Below are positions 52,519-60,206 of a stretch of DNA of 64,000 bases, in pieces. Origin of the DNA: Oscillospiraceae bacterium (GTDB lineage: Bacteria > Bacillota > Clostridia > Saccharofermentanales > Saccharofermentanaceae); NCBI GenBank assembly GCA_902802325.1, contig CADCLV010000004.1:124001-188000 (forward strand), written 5' to 3'. A program made the translations under genes and the position numbers. The stretch's first letter is position 1. Each line of letters opens with the position of its first letter. The notes under the pieces were generated by a model that saw only the letters and a list, made by a program, of their open reading frames with translations, was not told the DNA's origin and did no database searches.

Positions 52519-53739
52519 ATGAGTACAGATACATTTTCAAACAGCATACTTTCATCGGATGAAATGATCACGGTGATCATCCGGGATCAAGAGGAGGTCT
52601 GTCTGCACGCGCTGGAAATTCTGCAGACAGATCCTGCCTCTTCTTATCTTCCGGTGTATATCGGCCAAGACAACTCATCGCTTTCTATCGATACTTCAGA
52701 ATGTGTGCATTTTTCTTCCCTTTCTTTTTCCGAAAGGTTATATGTGGAAAGAAATTTCCGGAAACTCTTTTCCGAATTTCTTCTTTCGATTATGCATTCA
52801 CTGGATCAGGGACTTTCCCCCGGCGGGATCTGGTATAGCGGTGAGCATCTTTACTATCACCCGAAACTTCACCGCATCATGTGCATCTATCTTCCTCTAA
52901 AGAATCATCTTCAAGGAAGACCCGTACGTCTTTCAGAAATCCATGATGATAATATGGACGATCTGCTTCACGTGTTTTTCGAGAAGAAATGGATCACCCA
53001 GGATCTGATGGCGCCGGTCTACAATTTCTTTGAAAAAGACGACGAAGAAGCGCTTCGAAACTATATCCGTAAGGACATGTGGAAAGAGCATTCCGCACTT
53101 CCGCCTCCGTTAAAAAGCGCGCTTGCCGCATACGCGCTTCTCCTTATTCTCTATATCCTTTTCTCTCCCTATACCGAGGAATACTTTTCTGATAACGTTA
53201 TTGCATTGATTCCGGGACTTCTGTTTCTTACATCGACTATACTTCTTTTTTCTTCTCTTTTACTTTGCATCAGAACGAAAAAAAGGAACCGTGATCATCT
53301 TCTTTCCGAGAAAGATAAACGAAGAAAAGACAGAAATGCCCGAATGCTTTTCCCGTCTGAAAAGCCCGTGGAGAATCTCTCTTCATGCATGTACGAATTT
53401 GCGCCGGATCCGGTACAGTTTATTGAAACAACAGGAAATGAAGGAAGAAAGAAGTTTACGATCTGGACCAAAGGATTTACCATCGGGCTGGATACTGACT
53501 GCTGCGATCTGACCATCGATCACTCATCTGTTTCATTGAAACATGCTTTTCTCGGAACGGATGAAAATGGTTTCTATATTGAAGATCTGCATTCGCGGCA
53601 TGGCTCATTTGTGAACCGGAAAAGAATCGAGCCGGAAGAGAAATACTATCTTTCAGATGGAGATCTCATCGGGTTCGGAAAGAAAGAATATATTATGCAC
53701 TTTGTGCATGAAATTAAAGAGGATCAGAGTCCGAACTGA
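52519..53739 (+). CDS. Membrane protein with C-terminal FHA domain, Tad-locus associated
   Basis: 406 residues. N-terminal domain (about 1-190) resembling the region found in Clostridial Tad-locus FHA proteins, two membrane segments (about 202-250), a basic loop, then FHA (about 315-400). The FHA strand motif IGR is IGLD here, so the usual phosphate-contacting Arg is missing. SVSLKHA and HSRHGSFVNRK preserve the Ser, His and Asn positions. Phosphothreonine binding may be weakened. The last 16 bp overlap the converging atpC gene. Confidence 0.82.
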   Translation: MSTDTFSNSILSSDEMITVIIRDQEEVCLHALEILQTDPASSYLPVYIGQDNSSLSIDTSECVHFSSLSFSERLYVERNFRKLFSEFLLSIMHSLDQGLSPGGIWYSGEHLYYHPKLHRIMCIYLPLKNHLQGRPVRLSEIHDDNMDDLLHVFFEKKWITQDLMAPVYNFFEKDDEEALRNYIRKDMWKEHSALPPPLKSALAAYALLLILYILFSPYTEEYFSDNVIALIPGLLFLTSTILLFSSLLLCIRTKKRNRDHLLSEKDKRRKDRNARMLFPSEKPVENLSSCMYEFAPDPVQFIETTGNEGRKKFTIWTKGFTIGLDTDCCDLTIDHSSVSLKHAFLGTDENGFYIEDLHSRHGSFVNRKRIEPEEKYYLSDGDLIGFGKKEYIMHFVHEIKEDQSPN

Positions 53740-54176
53740 TCCTTCTTCTTCTCATTATCTTTTACGATCTGAAGTCGTGCTTTCGCACGGCGGATCGCAT
53801 GTCGTGCATAGATACGCTGTTCCTCTGTAGCGGAAGCATCATGCATACGTTCATGTGCACGTTCAAGCGCTCTTTTCGCACGCCCGGCATCGATGGATTC
53901 CGGCCATTCTGCCGCATTACACACCACCACAGCCACATGCTGGCCGATCTCGGCGAATCCCTCGGAGATAACAAATTTCTTCTCCTGACCATCCACGACG
54001 AAACGGGCCACACCCGGCGTTACGGCAACCACGATCGGAGCATGGCCGGGCAGCACACCGAACTGACCGTCCAGTGTGGGGATCACGATGCTTTCGACCT
54101 GGCCTTCGTAGAAAACCTCATACGGGTTGACCACTTCCAGCATCATCTTATTTTTTTTGCCTTCATCTTTGGCCAT
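53724..54176 (-). CDS. atpC: ATP synthase epsilon subunit
   Basis: 150 residues: N-terminal beta-sandwich (LEVVNPYEVFYEGQVESIVI, GQFGVLPGHAPIV) and a C-terminal helical hairpin (RAKRALERAHERM) with a lysine-rich end. Part of the F1 central stalk and a regulator of hydrolysis. Last gene of the atp operon, 10 bp after atpD. Its stop overlaps the FHA gene from the opposite strand and no terminator is visible. Confidence 0.95.
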   Translation of the reverse strand: MAKDEGKKNKMMLEVVNPYEVFYEGQVESIVIPTLDGQFGVLPGHAPIVVAVTPGVARFVVDGQEKKFVISEGFAEIGQHVAVVVCNAAEWPESIDAGRAKRALERAHERMHDASATEEQRIYARHAIRRAKARLQIVKDNEKKKDQFGL

Positions 54177-54186
54177 GACTTAATCC

Positions 54187-56522
<2,336 letters not shown>

Positions 56523-56530
56523 AGTCCCGA

Positions 56531-58428
56531 TTATGCCTCACGGTTCTGGTATTCTTTATGCTCGGCCACAAATAATGCGTGATACTCTTCTTCGATCTCG
56601 TCAATTTCCTTCTTGACGTCATCATCCAGTACACGGGTATCCGTGATCTTCTTCATGATTTCCGGATGCAGCACGCTCATACGCTGCAGGAATTCCTGCA
56701 CGTATTCTTTCGCATCTTCCTTATCCAGGAAAGTCAGTTTCTCGGATGTGGCCAGATACAGCATTACGACCTGTTCGTCCAGCTGCATCGGCTGATACTG
56801 CGGCTGCTTTAAGATCTCATTTAAGATCACGCCTCGCTTGATCTGCTTCTGGGTATTCGGATCCAGATCCGACCCGAACTGGGCAAAGGCAGCCATTTCT
56901 CTTGCCTGTGCCAGACTGATACGAAGCGGACCGGCCACTTTTTTCATGGCCTTGGTCTGGGCTGCACCACCTACACGGGATACAGAAAGACCTACGTTGA
57001 TAGCCGGACGCTGACCGGCAAAGAACAGTTCCGATTCCAGATAGATCTGACCGTCTGTAATAGAAATAACGTTGGTCGGAATATATGCTGAGATATCGCC
57101 GCTCAAGGTCTCGATGATCGGCAGTGCAGTAATGGAACCGCCACCCATCTCATCACTGAGTTTGGCAGCTCTTTCCAAAAGACGGGAGTGCAGATAGAAA
57201 ACATCACCCGGATAGGCTTCACGTCCCGGCGGACGGCGAAGAAGAAGCGAGATCGCACGGTAAGCCTGAGCATGCTTGGAAAGGTCGTCATAAACGATCA
57301 GCACATCCTGATGCTCTCCGTACATAAACTCTTCGGCAATGGCGCAGCCTGCATAAGGGGCAATATACTGAAGTGATGCCGGCTGGGCCGCACTGGCTGC
57401 CACGATCACGGTATATTCCATCGCATTATGTTGCTCTAAAGTATGTGCCACCTGCACAATATTCGACATCTTCTGTCCGATGGCCACATAGACGCAGAGG
57501 ACATTCTTACCACGCTGGTTTATGATCGTATCGATAGCAATCGCGGTCTTACCTGTCTGACGGTCACCAATGATCAGCTCACGCTGGCCACGGCCGATCG
57601 GCGTCATGGCGTCGATAGCGGTAATACCTGTCTGAAGCGGCTCGCAGATCGGAGATCTGGCCACGATACCCGGTGCCGGATACTCGATCGGACGGCGGCT
57701 GGTGGAACGGATAATGCCTTTTCCATCGATCGGATTTCCCAAAGGATCCACAACACGGCCAACCATACCACGGCCAACCGGAACTGAAACCGTACGGCCG
57801 GTTCTGTGACACATTCCACGTCCCGGCATTCATTTAACAAAACGACGCCGACTGTGTCGGTCTCCAGGTTCATGGCAATACCATAAGATGTTTCAGAGAA
57901 CATGATCAGCTCACTGGCCACACAGTTTTCCAGGCCGCTGACGGTAGCAACACCGTCACTGACGGAGATAACTTTACCGACCTGCTCCACTTCGGAAGCC
58001 TTGGCAAATTCGGTCAGAAGATTTTCTCTTTTTTCCGTCTGCTCTTCCGCATCATCTTCCCATAGCGCATCTTCTTCAAAAAGACTGGCCGGGCGTTCAT
58101 CGAAATCACGAAGGGATTCCATAAGTGACTTATGGATCTCGTCGGCTTCCCCGCCATCTTCCAATTTCACGGAATCGTTTCCACGATCCGTCTTCAGGTG
58201 CCGGCCGATACGGGCCAGCTGACCTGCATAACTGTAGTCATATTTTGTACCCTGCGCGTAGATCACATATCCGCCGATCAGAGACTTATCTGTCTCCTGC
58301 TCGATGGTATATCCCTGGATATGAAGATGCTCCGCAAAACGGCGGGCGATCAGCGCCACTTTCTCCGGTGGCATGTCGTCCGACGCATTGACGATACGAA
58401 TGACTTCAAAACCACTATCATTATTCAC
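56531..58428 (-). CDS. atpA: ATP synthase delta(C-domain)-alpha fusion, frameshifted
   Basis: The ATG at 58428 overlaps the atpF stop by 8 bp. Residues about 8-78 match the delta/OSCP C-terminal domain ([40 protein letters not shown]). A charged linker (80-150) leads to the alpha start [20 protein letters not shown]. The frame breaks near 57811-57817, after CRDVE. Alpha resumes at [13 protein letters not shown] in the next frame, with P-loop GDRQTGKTA and [10 protein letters not shown] intact to the stop at 56531. The upstream frame otherwise runs on to 57604. Joined, it would be about 633 residues. The six-helix delta N-domain is not encoded nearby. Confidence 0.85.
57811..57817 (-). other. 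Frame break inside atpA
   Basis: Upstream frame reads CRDVE then wrong-frame residues. The +1 frame reads [10 protein letters not shown]. Compared with other alpha subunits (D-x-x-EGM-x-x-x-x-TGR), a few codons plus the frame are lost here, so a short deletion or assembly error is likely. No slippery heptamer is visible. Confidence 0.75.
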
Positions 58429-59017
58429 CGGTCTTCACCTCTGCAGAAGCAAGTTCTTGCTGGACCTTTTCACGAAGTTCACTGTCGGAAGGTTTGCCTT
58501 CGGTGTTACTCAGAACACGGGCGGCGATAGAAACAGCCAGATCAGCTACTTCATCCTTCATCTCTTCCAGCACGGCCTTACGGGTGCGCTTTGCATCCTC
58601 TTCGGCACGGTCGCGGATATCCTGTGCTTCTTTTTTCGCCGTTTCCACGATTGTTTCGGATTGCTTCTCCGCCTGGGAACGGGCATCTGCGATGATCTGG
58701 ATCGCTTCCTCATGAGAAGCATCCAGTTTCTTTGTTGCTTCTTCCAGCTTCTCTTCCGCCTGCTTTTCTTTTTCTTCCGCCGAAGTCAGCTTTCCGCCGA
58801 TAGTCTCCGAACGCTTCTTGATCACTTTGATCAACGGCTTAAAGAGAACGGCCTTCAAAATCAGATAGGTCACTAAAAGGGTCAGGATCGTGACCAGCGC
58901 TGTGGCCAGATAGTGGCCCAGCTGATCCGGAGAAAGAAGGGAGCTCTCCTCTGCTTCTTCCGCCAGCGCCAGTACCGGTGTTCCGGCTAATGACAGCAGT
59001 TTCACTGCACTAAACAT
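58421..59017 (-). CDS. atpF: ATP synthase subunit b
   Basis: Peripheral stalk subunit, 198 residues. N-terminal hydrophobic leader (about 5-20) and the main membrane helix (about 36-60, VTILTLLVTYLILKAVLFKPL), then a long charged coiled coil, and a C-terminal globular end (SIAARVLSNTEGK) that normally binds delta. Complete; it does not contain the missing delta N-domain. The last 8 bp overlap the fusion gene. Confidence 0.94.
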   Translation of the reverse strand: MFSAVKLLSLAGTPVLALAEEAEESSLLSPDQLGHYLATALVTILTLLVTYLILKAVLFKPLIKVIKKRSETIGGKLTSAEEKEKQAEEKLEEATKKLDASHEEAIQIIADARSQAEKQSETIVETAKKEAQDIRDRAEEDAKRTRKAVLEEMKDEVADLAVSIAARVLSNTEGKPSDSELREKVQQELASAEVKTGE

Positions 59018-59037: not shown

Positions 59038-59307
59038 TCAGAACGTAAAGATAAGAAGCAGACTGACAACCAGAGAATAGATCGCAACGGACTCCATAAA
59101 TACGATGGAGATCAGAAGCAGCGTCTGCAGTTTACTGTACATTTCAGGCTGACGGGAAGCCCCTTCCAGTGCACGGCCGGCGGCCATACCGATACCGATC
59201 GTGGTACCCAGAGCACCAAGACCGATGGCAAGACCGGCACCAAATCCGGCTAAGCCCTTCGGATCCATTGCGGCGGCATCCAGTAAAACTCGTGATAATT
59301 GAAACAT
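59038..59307 (-). CDS. atpE: ATP synthase subunit c
   Basis: 89 residues forming two membrane helices and a polar loop GRALEGASRQPE. The ion-binding Glu is in FMESVAIYSLVV on helix 2. In Na+-specific rings helix 1 has Gln three residues before AAG (QGYAAG). Here the position is Ile (IGMAAG), so a proton-binding ring is more likely even though the ES pair is present. Confidence 0.96.
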   Translation of the reverse strand: MFQLSRVLLDAAAMDPKGLAGFGAGLAIGLGALGTTIGIGMAAGRALEGASRQPEMYSKLQTLLLISIVFMESVAIYSLVVSLLLIFTF

Positions 59308-59327: not shown

Positions 59328-60206
59328 TCAGGCTGCGCTCTTTGCCTCTTCGGCTTTGGCGGCAGTTTCTTTTTCTGCTTTCAGCTTCATCTGTTCATGT
59401 TTTCTCTCTTCGACGGCATGGGAGCTTTCCACGACCTCACCGATATAGGAGATGGTCAGGTAGCAGAAGACCACTGCCTGCAATATTCCATCCATCAGAT
59501 CGAACCAGAGGCTGAGGACACCCGGCAAAAGGACCGGCAGCACCATTCCGACAAATTCCATCAGGATAAACGCACCGAATACGTTACCGAAAAGACGGAG
59601 CGCCAGAGAGATCGGTTTGATAATGAAGTCGATGATCTTAAAAGGCACCATGAATCCCTTCGGATCAACGAAGGAACGGCCGAATCCTTTTAAGCCGACA
59701 AAACGGATCGACATAACGATCACATATACGATGGCAAAGATCGCCATAGCAAACGGGAACGCGATATTCTTCGCCGGCGGGGGCAGATGGAATACCGCAA
59801 TCAGGTTACAGGAAATCAGGAAGATACCCATGGAACCAACCATCGGCACCACCTTCTCGGCCTGTTCTTCATTCAGGCCGTAATCCTTGCAGACACCGAA
59901 AAGAAGGCCGATCAGCGACTCCATCAGAGCCTGTCCGCCCTTGGGGTGGATCTCTCTTTTTCTTCCCAGTGTGCTAAAGATCAGAATGCCAAAGAATGCC
60001 GCGATCCACGAAATAATGATCGCGTCTGTGATCGGAATACGGTTTCCGCCAATAGAAAGATATCCTTTCCACTGGAGGATCGCTTCGCGGATCTCATCAC
60101 CGATGTTGACACTTCCGGTGTAGATCCCGCCGAACACATTCTTTAGTTCTCCAATAAACGCTTCCCAGAACCTTGCGCCCCAGGATGCATCCAGCAACAA
60201 ATTCAT
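59328..60206 (-). CDS. atpB: ATP synthase subunit a
   Basis: 292 residues, five or six membrane helices. The essential Arg is in PISLALRLFGNVFGAFIL (about 210-227). It carries an N-terminal outside segment of about 60 residues and a charged C-terminal tail (EERKHEQMKLKAEKETAAK) of about 30 residues, longer than usual. atpI is absent upstream. The gene starts 20 bp after upp. Confidence 0.95.
   Translation of the reverse strand: MNLLLDASWGARFWEAFIGELKNVFGGIYTGSVNIGDEIREAILQWKGYLSIGGNRIPITDAIIISWIAAFFGILIFSTLGRKREIHPKGGQALMESLIGLLFGVCKDYGLNEEQAEKVVPMVGSMGIFLISCNLIAVFHLPPPAKNIAFPFAMAIFAIVYVIVMSIRFVGLKGFGRSFVDPKGFMVPFKIIDFIIKPISLALRLFGNVFGAFILMEFVGMVLPVLLPGVLSLWFDLMDGILQAVVFCYLTISYIGEVVESSHAVEERKHEQMKLKAEKETAAKAEEAKSAA

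Follow-up and report, generated by a model that had tools for sequence, protein, structure and literature searches.

How does an F-type ATP synthase hold its peripheral stalk, and how many stalks can it carry, when delta appears to have been reduced to its C-terminal domain and joined to alpha? The question is raised by an atp operon in a 64,000-nucleotide stretch of contig CADCLV010000004.1 (the window; Oscillospiraceae bacterium, assembly GCA_902802325.1). The standard enzyme has a lone delta at its three-fold axis, with the N-domain bound to the N-terminal regions of alpha and the C-domain holding the single b2 stalk (PMC12229609). The window operon is encoded on the minus strand, its genes running a, c, b, delta-alpha, gamma, beta, epsilon, as read from ORFs and Pfam matches:

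59328..60206, minus strand: atpB, subunit a (PF00119)
59038..59307, minus strand: atpE, subunit c (PF00137)
58421..59017, minus strand: atpF, subunit b (PF00430; match to Bacillus PS3 b, 6n2y, over residues 39-173 of 198)
57604..58428, minus strand: ORF with GTG start, 274 aa, encoding the delta C-terminal domain, a linker and the alpha N-terminal barrel, its last ~70 residues outside the alpha frame
58192..58404, minus strand: delta/OSCP C-terminal domain (residues 9-79; Pfam stretch 20-78, AF2 elements, VIA match)
58000..58191, minus strand: linker and degenerate alpha N-terminal helix region (residues 80-143; sequence, secondary structure, conservation in relatives)
57823..57990, minus strand: alpha N-terminal beta-barrel (residues 147-202; PF02874)
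57810..57820, minus strand: site of a 10-base deletion relative to aligned relatives, where the alpha frame is broken (alignments with relatives)
56531..57829, minus strand: remaining alpha, nucleotide-binding and C-terminal domains, in another frame (PF00006, PF00306; TIGR00962, 664.6 bits)
55590..56522, minus strand: atpG, gamma (PF00231)
54187..55578, minus strand: atpD, beta (PF00006, PF02874, PF22919; operon position)
53724..54176, minus strand: atpC, epsilon, both domains (PF02823, PF00401)

Residues 20-78 of the ORF following atpF match PF00213 (OSCP) positions 114-172 (E 9.4e-6, 26.2 bits; gathering score 22.3) and residues 147-202 match PF02874 (alpha/beta barrel; E 8.4e-7); a delta C-domain (about 105-172) is joined in frame to the N-terminus of alpha. 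An earlier note on this DNA, made from the sequence alone, had read the gene as a delta/OSCP C-domain, linker and alpha N-terminus and had proposed a PF00213 search of the fused N-terminus; both matches bear this reading out. Its observation that atpF overlaps the start of the fusion also holds, the GTG at 58428 lying within the 3′ end of atpF (58421-59017) with an overlap of 8 bases. Across the genome that contains the window (2.7 Mb, 145 contigs, 95.6% complete) the fused gene, matched over its C-domain part only, is the sole PF00213 match at E <= 10, and neither a second match nor a separate full-length atpH was found by this search, in agreement with the note's statement that a gene for the delta N-domain is missing. 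All other subunits are present and there is no separate two-domain delta: the window enzyme is a variant of the F-type ATP synthase, not the standard form. It is close to certain that this gene is a real fusion of alpha with a delta trimmed to its C-terminal domain, and that it is the only delta of the genome.

The fused N-terminus is conserved among relatives. A profile of the delta C-domain plus linker (A1), built from 15 fused N-termini, gave a match at E <= 0.001 in 134 of 188 genomes of the order, a few of these matches being ordinary delta C-domains. Among them are 18 genomes of family f4, 108 of the 115 genomes of the window's own family (in 107 the match covers the delta part, and in G074 it is confined to the last 30 positions) and all 23 genomes of its genus; with matches throughout the genus and in 108/115 family genomes, the fusion is therefore not due to chance. 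A complete fused frame of 635-639 aa is present in 21 of the 23 genus genomes, the exceptions being G110 (contig end) and the window (broken frame). Separate atpH and atpA in related strains had been named in the earlier note as evidence against a fusion; all 23 genus genomes match the fused profile and no full-length delta was found among the matches listed for them (G099 has a second, weak PF00213 hit). Within the family, 53 of 115 genomes, each a member of the sister genus g5, encode a full-length delta (E < 1e-30), and 49 of them carry the fusion as well. The fused profile was not found in G058, G084 and G087, which carry full-length delta and are each under 90% complete, and G074 (92% complete) has only a fragment at a contig end. 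In the four operons read to their end (L178, L179, L181 and L235), the full-length delta belongs to a second, complete canonical operon (a-c-b-delta-alpha-gamma-beta-epsilon).

The best 80 of 117 named GTDB relatives were also fetched, titled Saccharofermentans, Mageeibacillus or Clostridia (no genus name), many of them from ruminants according to their titles. At 77 of these 80 loci delta and alpha are read through as a single complete open frame (627-676 aa), and at the remaining three (L060, L081, L082) the fused frame is ended by contig edges. Eleven columns before residue 150 are invariant, ten in the delta part (F31, G53, Y63, D64, Y65, G69, Q70, L71, R73, K79) while E111 falls in the linker. 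In 20 family loci 56-76 residues lie between the profile matches for delta and alpha. Genes for a, c, b, gamma, beta and epsilon are found in order around the fused gene in all 20 family operons fetched (L032-L051). In the operons read, a, b and c are encoded by a single gene apiece, so that extra copies of a or b would need higher translation.

Ten bases are missing from the window at about 57815; they are present in 20/20 aligned relatives and in L071 (CADBGD010000052.1), which has 93.8% DNA identity to the window over 9.5 kb and is intact at this site. Because of their absence alpha resumes in another frame (57829-56531), and the window fusion protein would be interrupted after about 203 residues, a break close to the end of the stretch reported in the earlier note (57811) and missing from it. 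The only other indel relative to L071 across the 6.5-kb operon is of one base, between gamma and beta. The deletion may be an assembly error or a genuine recent mutation, either of which fits the window data; in the latter case the window strain may be without this enzyme. A dead F-type enzyme in this strain, the deletion being real and the cell living on a V-type ATPase and Rnf, is rather unlikely: the deletion was found in the window alone among the genomes aligned, and RnfC and a V/A-type A subunit are encoded in all 23 genus genomes, the window's included, but the relatives compared are intact, the 6.5-kb operon has no further frame-breaking change relative to L071 and a lone indel could be a mistake of the draft assembly, which is in 145 contigs. 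That the fusion itself is an artefact of annotation or assembly, with a normal atpH in existence and a frame error joining the genes, is scarcely conceivable. The window does contain a frame error, but within alpha and away from the delta-alpha junction, and complete fused frames at 77/80 named loci, from many assemblies including a record titled as strain KHP2 and not as a MAG, refute such an origin.

An equivalent of the fusion has been made in the laboratory. Ueno et al. (2025) removed the delta N-domain of the Bacillus PS3 enzyme and fused delta 105-178 to alpha, and the resulting deltaDeltaN-alpha FoF1 contained 2.2x a and 1.8x b compared with wild type, with an H+/ATP of 5.8 vs 3.0 (PMC12229609). 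By cryo-EM, 0, 1, 2 and 3 stalks were seen in 15, 51, 26 and 8% of particles, and it was concluded that the delta N-domain restricts stalk number to one (PMC12229609). The same paper names a natural delta-alpha fusion (Acidaminococcus fermentans, UniProt G4Q3K6 and A0A1I2C5T3), for which its authors consider a multi-stalk structure highly likely. The fusion design as such has thus been in print since July 2025, and the earlier note, whose reader knew of no delta-alpha fusion, is to be corrected on this point. Besides PMC12229609, no report of natural delta-alpha fusions or multi-stalk F-type enzymes came up in searches of open-access PMC, nor did biochemical or structural data on natural fused members.

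Structure comparisons also point to the engineered enzyme. An AlphaFold model of the first 202 window residues (53 sequences; single-chain, medium confidence, mean pLDDT 66.5) has the elements E8-14, H21-35, E40-46, E53-58, E61-66 and H67-80 in the delta part, followed by the barrel after 150; a full-length model (single-chain, mean pLDDT 69.1), weak in the middle, was left out of the fold search. The top three Foldseek matches in the PDB were chains K, I and J of 9jc1 (E 1.4e-8 to 9e-8; next match 3.2e-4), the engineered triple-stalk PS3 enzyme (PMC12229609). VIA-align placed 9jc1_K first (Z 11.0 over 142 residues; next entry 8.6 over 54), followed mostly by alpha chains over about 54 residues (Z 8.6 and below), and matched residues 7-80 to the Pseudomonas delta chain 9o19_W (Z 8.1, rmsd 2.1 over 72 residues). 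With the A1 profile the best PDB match was the engineered delta-alpha chain 9jc1_I (E 4e-8), with PS3 delta 6n2y_I close behind (5.3e-8); the delta part of 9jc1_I is derived from natural PS3 delta (PMC12229609).

The best overall explanation, in which we have good confidence, is that the delta C-domain on each alpha is a stalk socket and that more than one stalk can probably attach. Each alpha would bear its own socket, the delta N-domain being gone, and F1 would have three, because its three alpha chains are identical (as expected from the universal alpha3beta3 core). The delta C-domain of the fusion very likely serves as stalk anchor, b2 most likely gripping it in the usual manner; subunit b aligns with Bacillus PS3 b to about residue 173 of 198, reaching the C-terminal part. 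As the three-fold symmetry is left unbroken, more than one stalk, each with its own a, can probably attach, and one to three b2-a units may do so per F1. The argument of the earlier note, that three delta C-domains per F1 with one b2 stalk imply an altered stalk attachment or stoichiometry, was right, and has been borne out by experiment for the engineered equivalent (PMC12229609). By analogy with that enzyme, the extra stalks and a subunits would raise H+ per ATP, a low gear that would permit ATP synthesis, or proton pumping, at low proton motive force. How many protons are spent per ATP determines the minimum proton motive force that still supports ATP synthesis. On the same analogy, the chances that at least part of the natural enzymes carry several stalks are evenly balanced.

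A substantial possibility, of rather less than even probability, is that F1 has three sockets and one stalk, the fusion easing assembly while steric or dosage limits hold b2-a at one and leave two sockets idle. Every operon read has a single a and a single b gene, and 66% of the cryo-EM particles of the engineered enzyme had one stalk or none, but SDS-PAGE and H+/ATP of that enzyme indicate about two stalks on average, and the delta N-domain, stalk-limiting according to Ueno et al. (PMC12229609), is absent from the window genome. It is improbable that the N-terminal domain has given up stalk anchoring, with b2 binding elsewhere and the delta-like part merely stabilising alpha. Such a role would suit a delta part that reaches just 26 bits against Pfam and is separated from the alpha match by 56-76 residues, but ten of the 11 invariant columns fall in that part, and the similarity of b to PS3 b extends into the C-terminal part. 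A further sign that the N-domain is truly gone from fused enzymes is the loss of constraint on its docking helix. In pairs of alphas matched for catalytic-core identity (0.70-0.85), identity of the alpha N-helix was 0.43 in canonical vs 0.14 in fused enzymes (97 pairs vs 351 in the order and 137 outside), and that of the adjacent barrel was 0.55 vs 0.55 (order) and 0.45 (outside). The alpha helix on which the delta N-domain docks thus appears no longer to be conserved in fused alphas; this is support, not proof, since the same sequences recur in different pairs, which are therefore not independent, and the helix lies next to an alignment end.

Fused genes are also found outside the family. Of the 138 genomes in an even class sample, 89 encode an F-type alpha (E <= 1e-100); the census followed up alpha frames of at least 585 aa (plus G302 and G228, neither fused), and shorter or broken fusions would escape it, so the counts are lower bounds. 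Delta is joined to alpha in at least 21 of the 89 (window included), and a C-domain-only fusion is present in at least 17, in 11 families (f1, f3, f7, f14, f15, f18, f19, f29, f31, f52, f57). The weakest of the 17 is G235, its delta part matching our own-built profile in two pieces (12 and 10 bits). A full-size delta piece is fused to alpha (679-690 aa) in four genomes: L217, L218 and L219 (f20), in which the delta N-domain is weakly recognised (13 bits), and L191 (G320, f29). G210, one of 21 long alpha frames, was rejected as a fusion, its frame extending upstream and its delta being separate. Beyond the class, a phylum sample of 398 genomes yielded fused genes in f108 (3 genomes) and f197 (1); in G751, a fourth f108 genome, a contig end cuts the gene, whose start looks alike. 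A quick tree built from the 89 alphas requires 8 changes in the fused state; for the C-domain-only label, branches with good support demand no fewer than 4. Independent origins are not established, because a single clade of fused alphas is not rejected by the AU test (p 0.20) and several long branches meet; the sequences are compatible with one origin or several.

Other arrangements of delta accompany a separate alpha. A free-standing delta C-domain gene precedes alpha in G154, G195, G199, G233, G283 and G837, and in G154, a one-contig genome, this gene (89 aa) is the only PF00213 match at E <= 0.1. Tandem delta C-domains (N-C-C) lie ahead of alpha in G119, G130, G432 and G606, where one N-domain would be combined with two possible stalk sockets:

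L182, 7967-8236, minus strand, and L205-L209: free-standing delta C-domain genes, 77-94 aa
L162, 1533-2315, minus strand; L163, 1413-2177, plus strand; L210; L203: N-C-C delta, 254-290 aa

At L211 (G701), two ORFs of 130 and 169 aa match the delta C-domain, and no other atp subunit was recognised in the fetched stretch. L233 (G248) has the N-ATPase-like order beta-epsilon-a-c-b-alpha-gamma, and its b (250 aa) ends with a delta C-domain match. In G312, gamma and beta share one open frame of 786 aa (L227, 6097-8457, plus strand), probably owing to a sequencing error or a lost stop, because a rotor-stator fusion is hard to understand.

Strain KHP2 (G066, FWXP01000001.1) carries two complete F-type operons on one 824,806-bp contig, one fused (L048/L087) and one canonical (L235), with different c subunits. 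The c subunits of fused operons lack the threonine pattern (ETT...Y) that we take to be the mark of Na+ enzymes, and c of the canonical second operon of g5 has it; as a lead, assuming this motif, the difference suggests H+ for the fused and Na+ for the canonical second operon. RnfC is encoded in 23/23 genus genomes (over NCBI's cut-off), as is a V/A-type A subunit (TIGR01043, E down to 1e-279, in all below the curated cut-off of this archaeal model), and the F-type enzyme is therefore probably not the sole rotary ATPase. An RnfC-like gene (G000:C4:191599-192897) lies about 3.6 kb past the window end (188000) and about 9 kb from the delta-alpha gene of this contig, and the spacing is similar in G103 and other genus genomes.

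In a combined picture, whose chances we put somewhat below even, loss of the N-domain with a delta C-domain on each alpha would be common in Clostridia and give real multi-stalk, multi-a, low-gear enzymes, KHP2 would have two gears in one membrane, and in other lineages N-C-C delta would give a two-stalk enzyme by another route. Natural variation in H+/ATP has been attributed to c-ring size (PMC12229609). The laboratory design of 2025 occurs naturally in about a fifth of the alpha-bearing class-sample genomes (at least 17/89 C-domain only, at least 21/89 in all), and relatives that retain the canonical enzyme alongside allow comparison, so that the existence of natural multi-stalk ATP synthases becomes directly testable. 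Within the literature covered, the following go beyond what is in print: how widely the fusion occurs, the weakened constraint on the docking helix, delta C-domains that stand alone or in tandem, and the presence of both enzymes in a single strain.

Among known systems, engineered PS3 deltaDeltaN-alpha, with delta 105-178 on the alpha N-terminus and the N-domain gone, is the closest by profile and structure. It differs in its short, engineered linker, where the window family is natural and conserved with 56-76 residues between profile matches, and in epsilon, which retains both domains in the window. The Acidaminococcus fermentans fusion likewise lacks the delta N-domain and has the C-domain on alpha, with several stalks suspected by the authors (PMC12229609), but belongs to the Negativicutes, while the window is from a relative of Saccharofermentans. 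In some Mycobacterium and Gordonia delta has also been rewired by gene fusion, there with b and here with alpha (PMC5709465); a b-delta fusion was rejected for the window, where b is a separate gene with no Pfam match to delta. N-ATPase operons (beta, epsilon, a, c, b, alpha, gamma) have no delta and share with the window the absence of a separate full delta gene, but gene order and alpha type differ (PMC5709465). Over its 432-aa alpha part the window gene reaches a score of 549 with TIGR03324 (alternate alpha; cut-off 750.5) and of 665 with standard atpA (cut-off 484), and an N-ATPase was rejected on this score, which covers the 432-aa part only, and on the order a-c-b-deltaC/alpha-gamma-beta-epsilon. 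V-ATPases with three peripheral stalks would resemble the fused enzymes in having several, if the multi-stalk reading holds, although their stalks are heterodimers of E and G, unlike the F-type b2 (PMC6131620).
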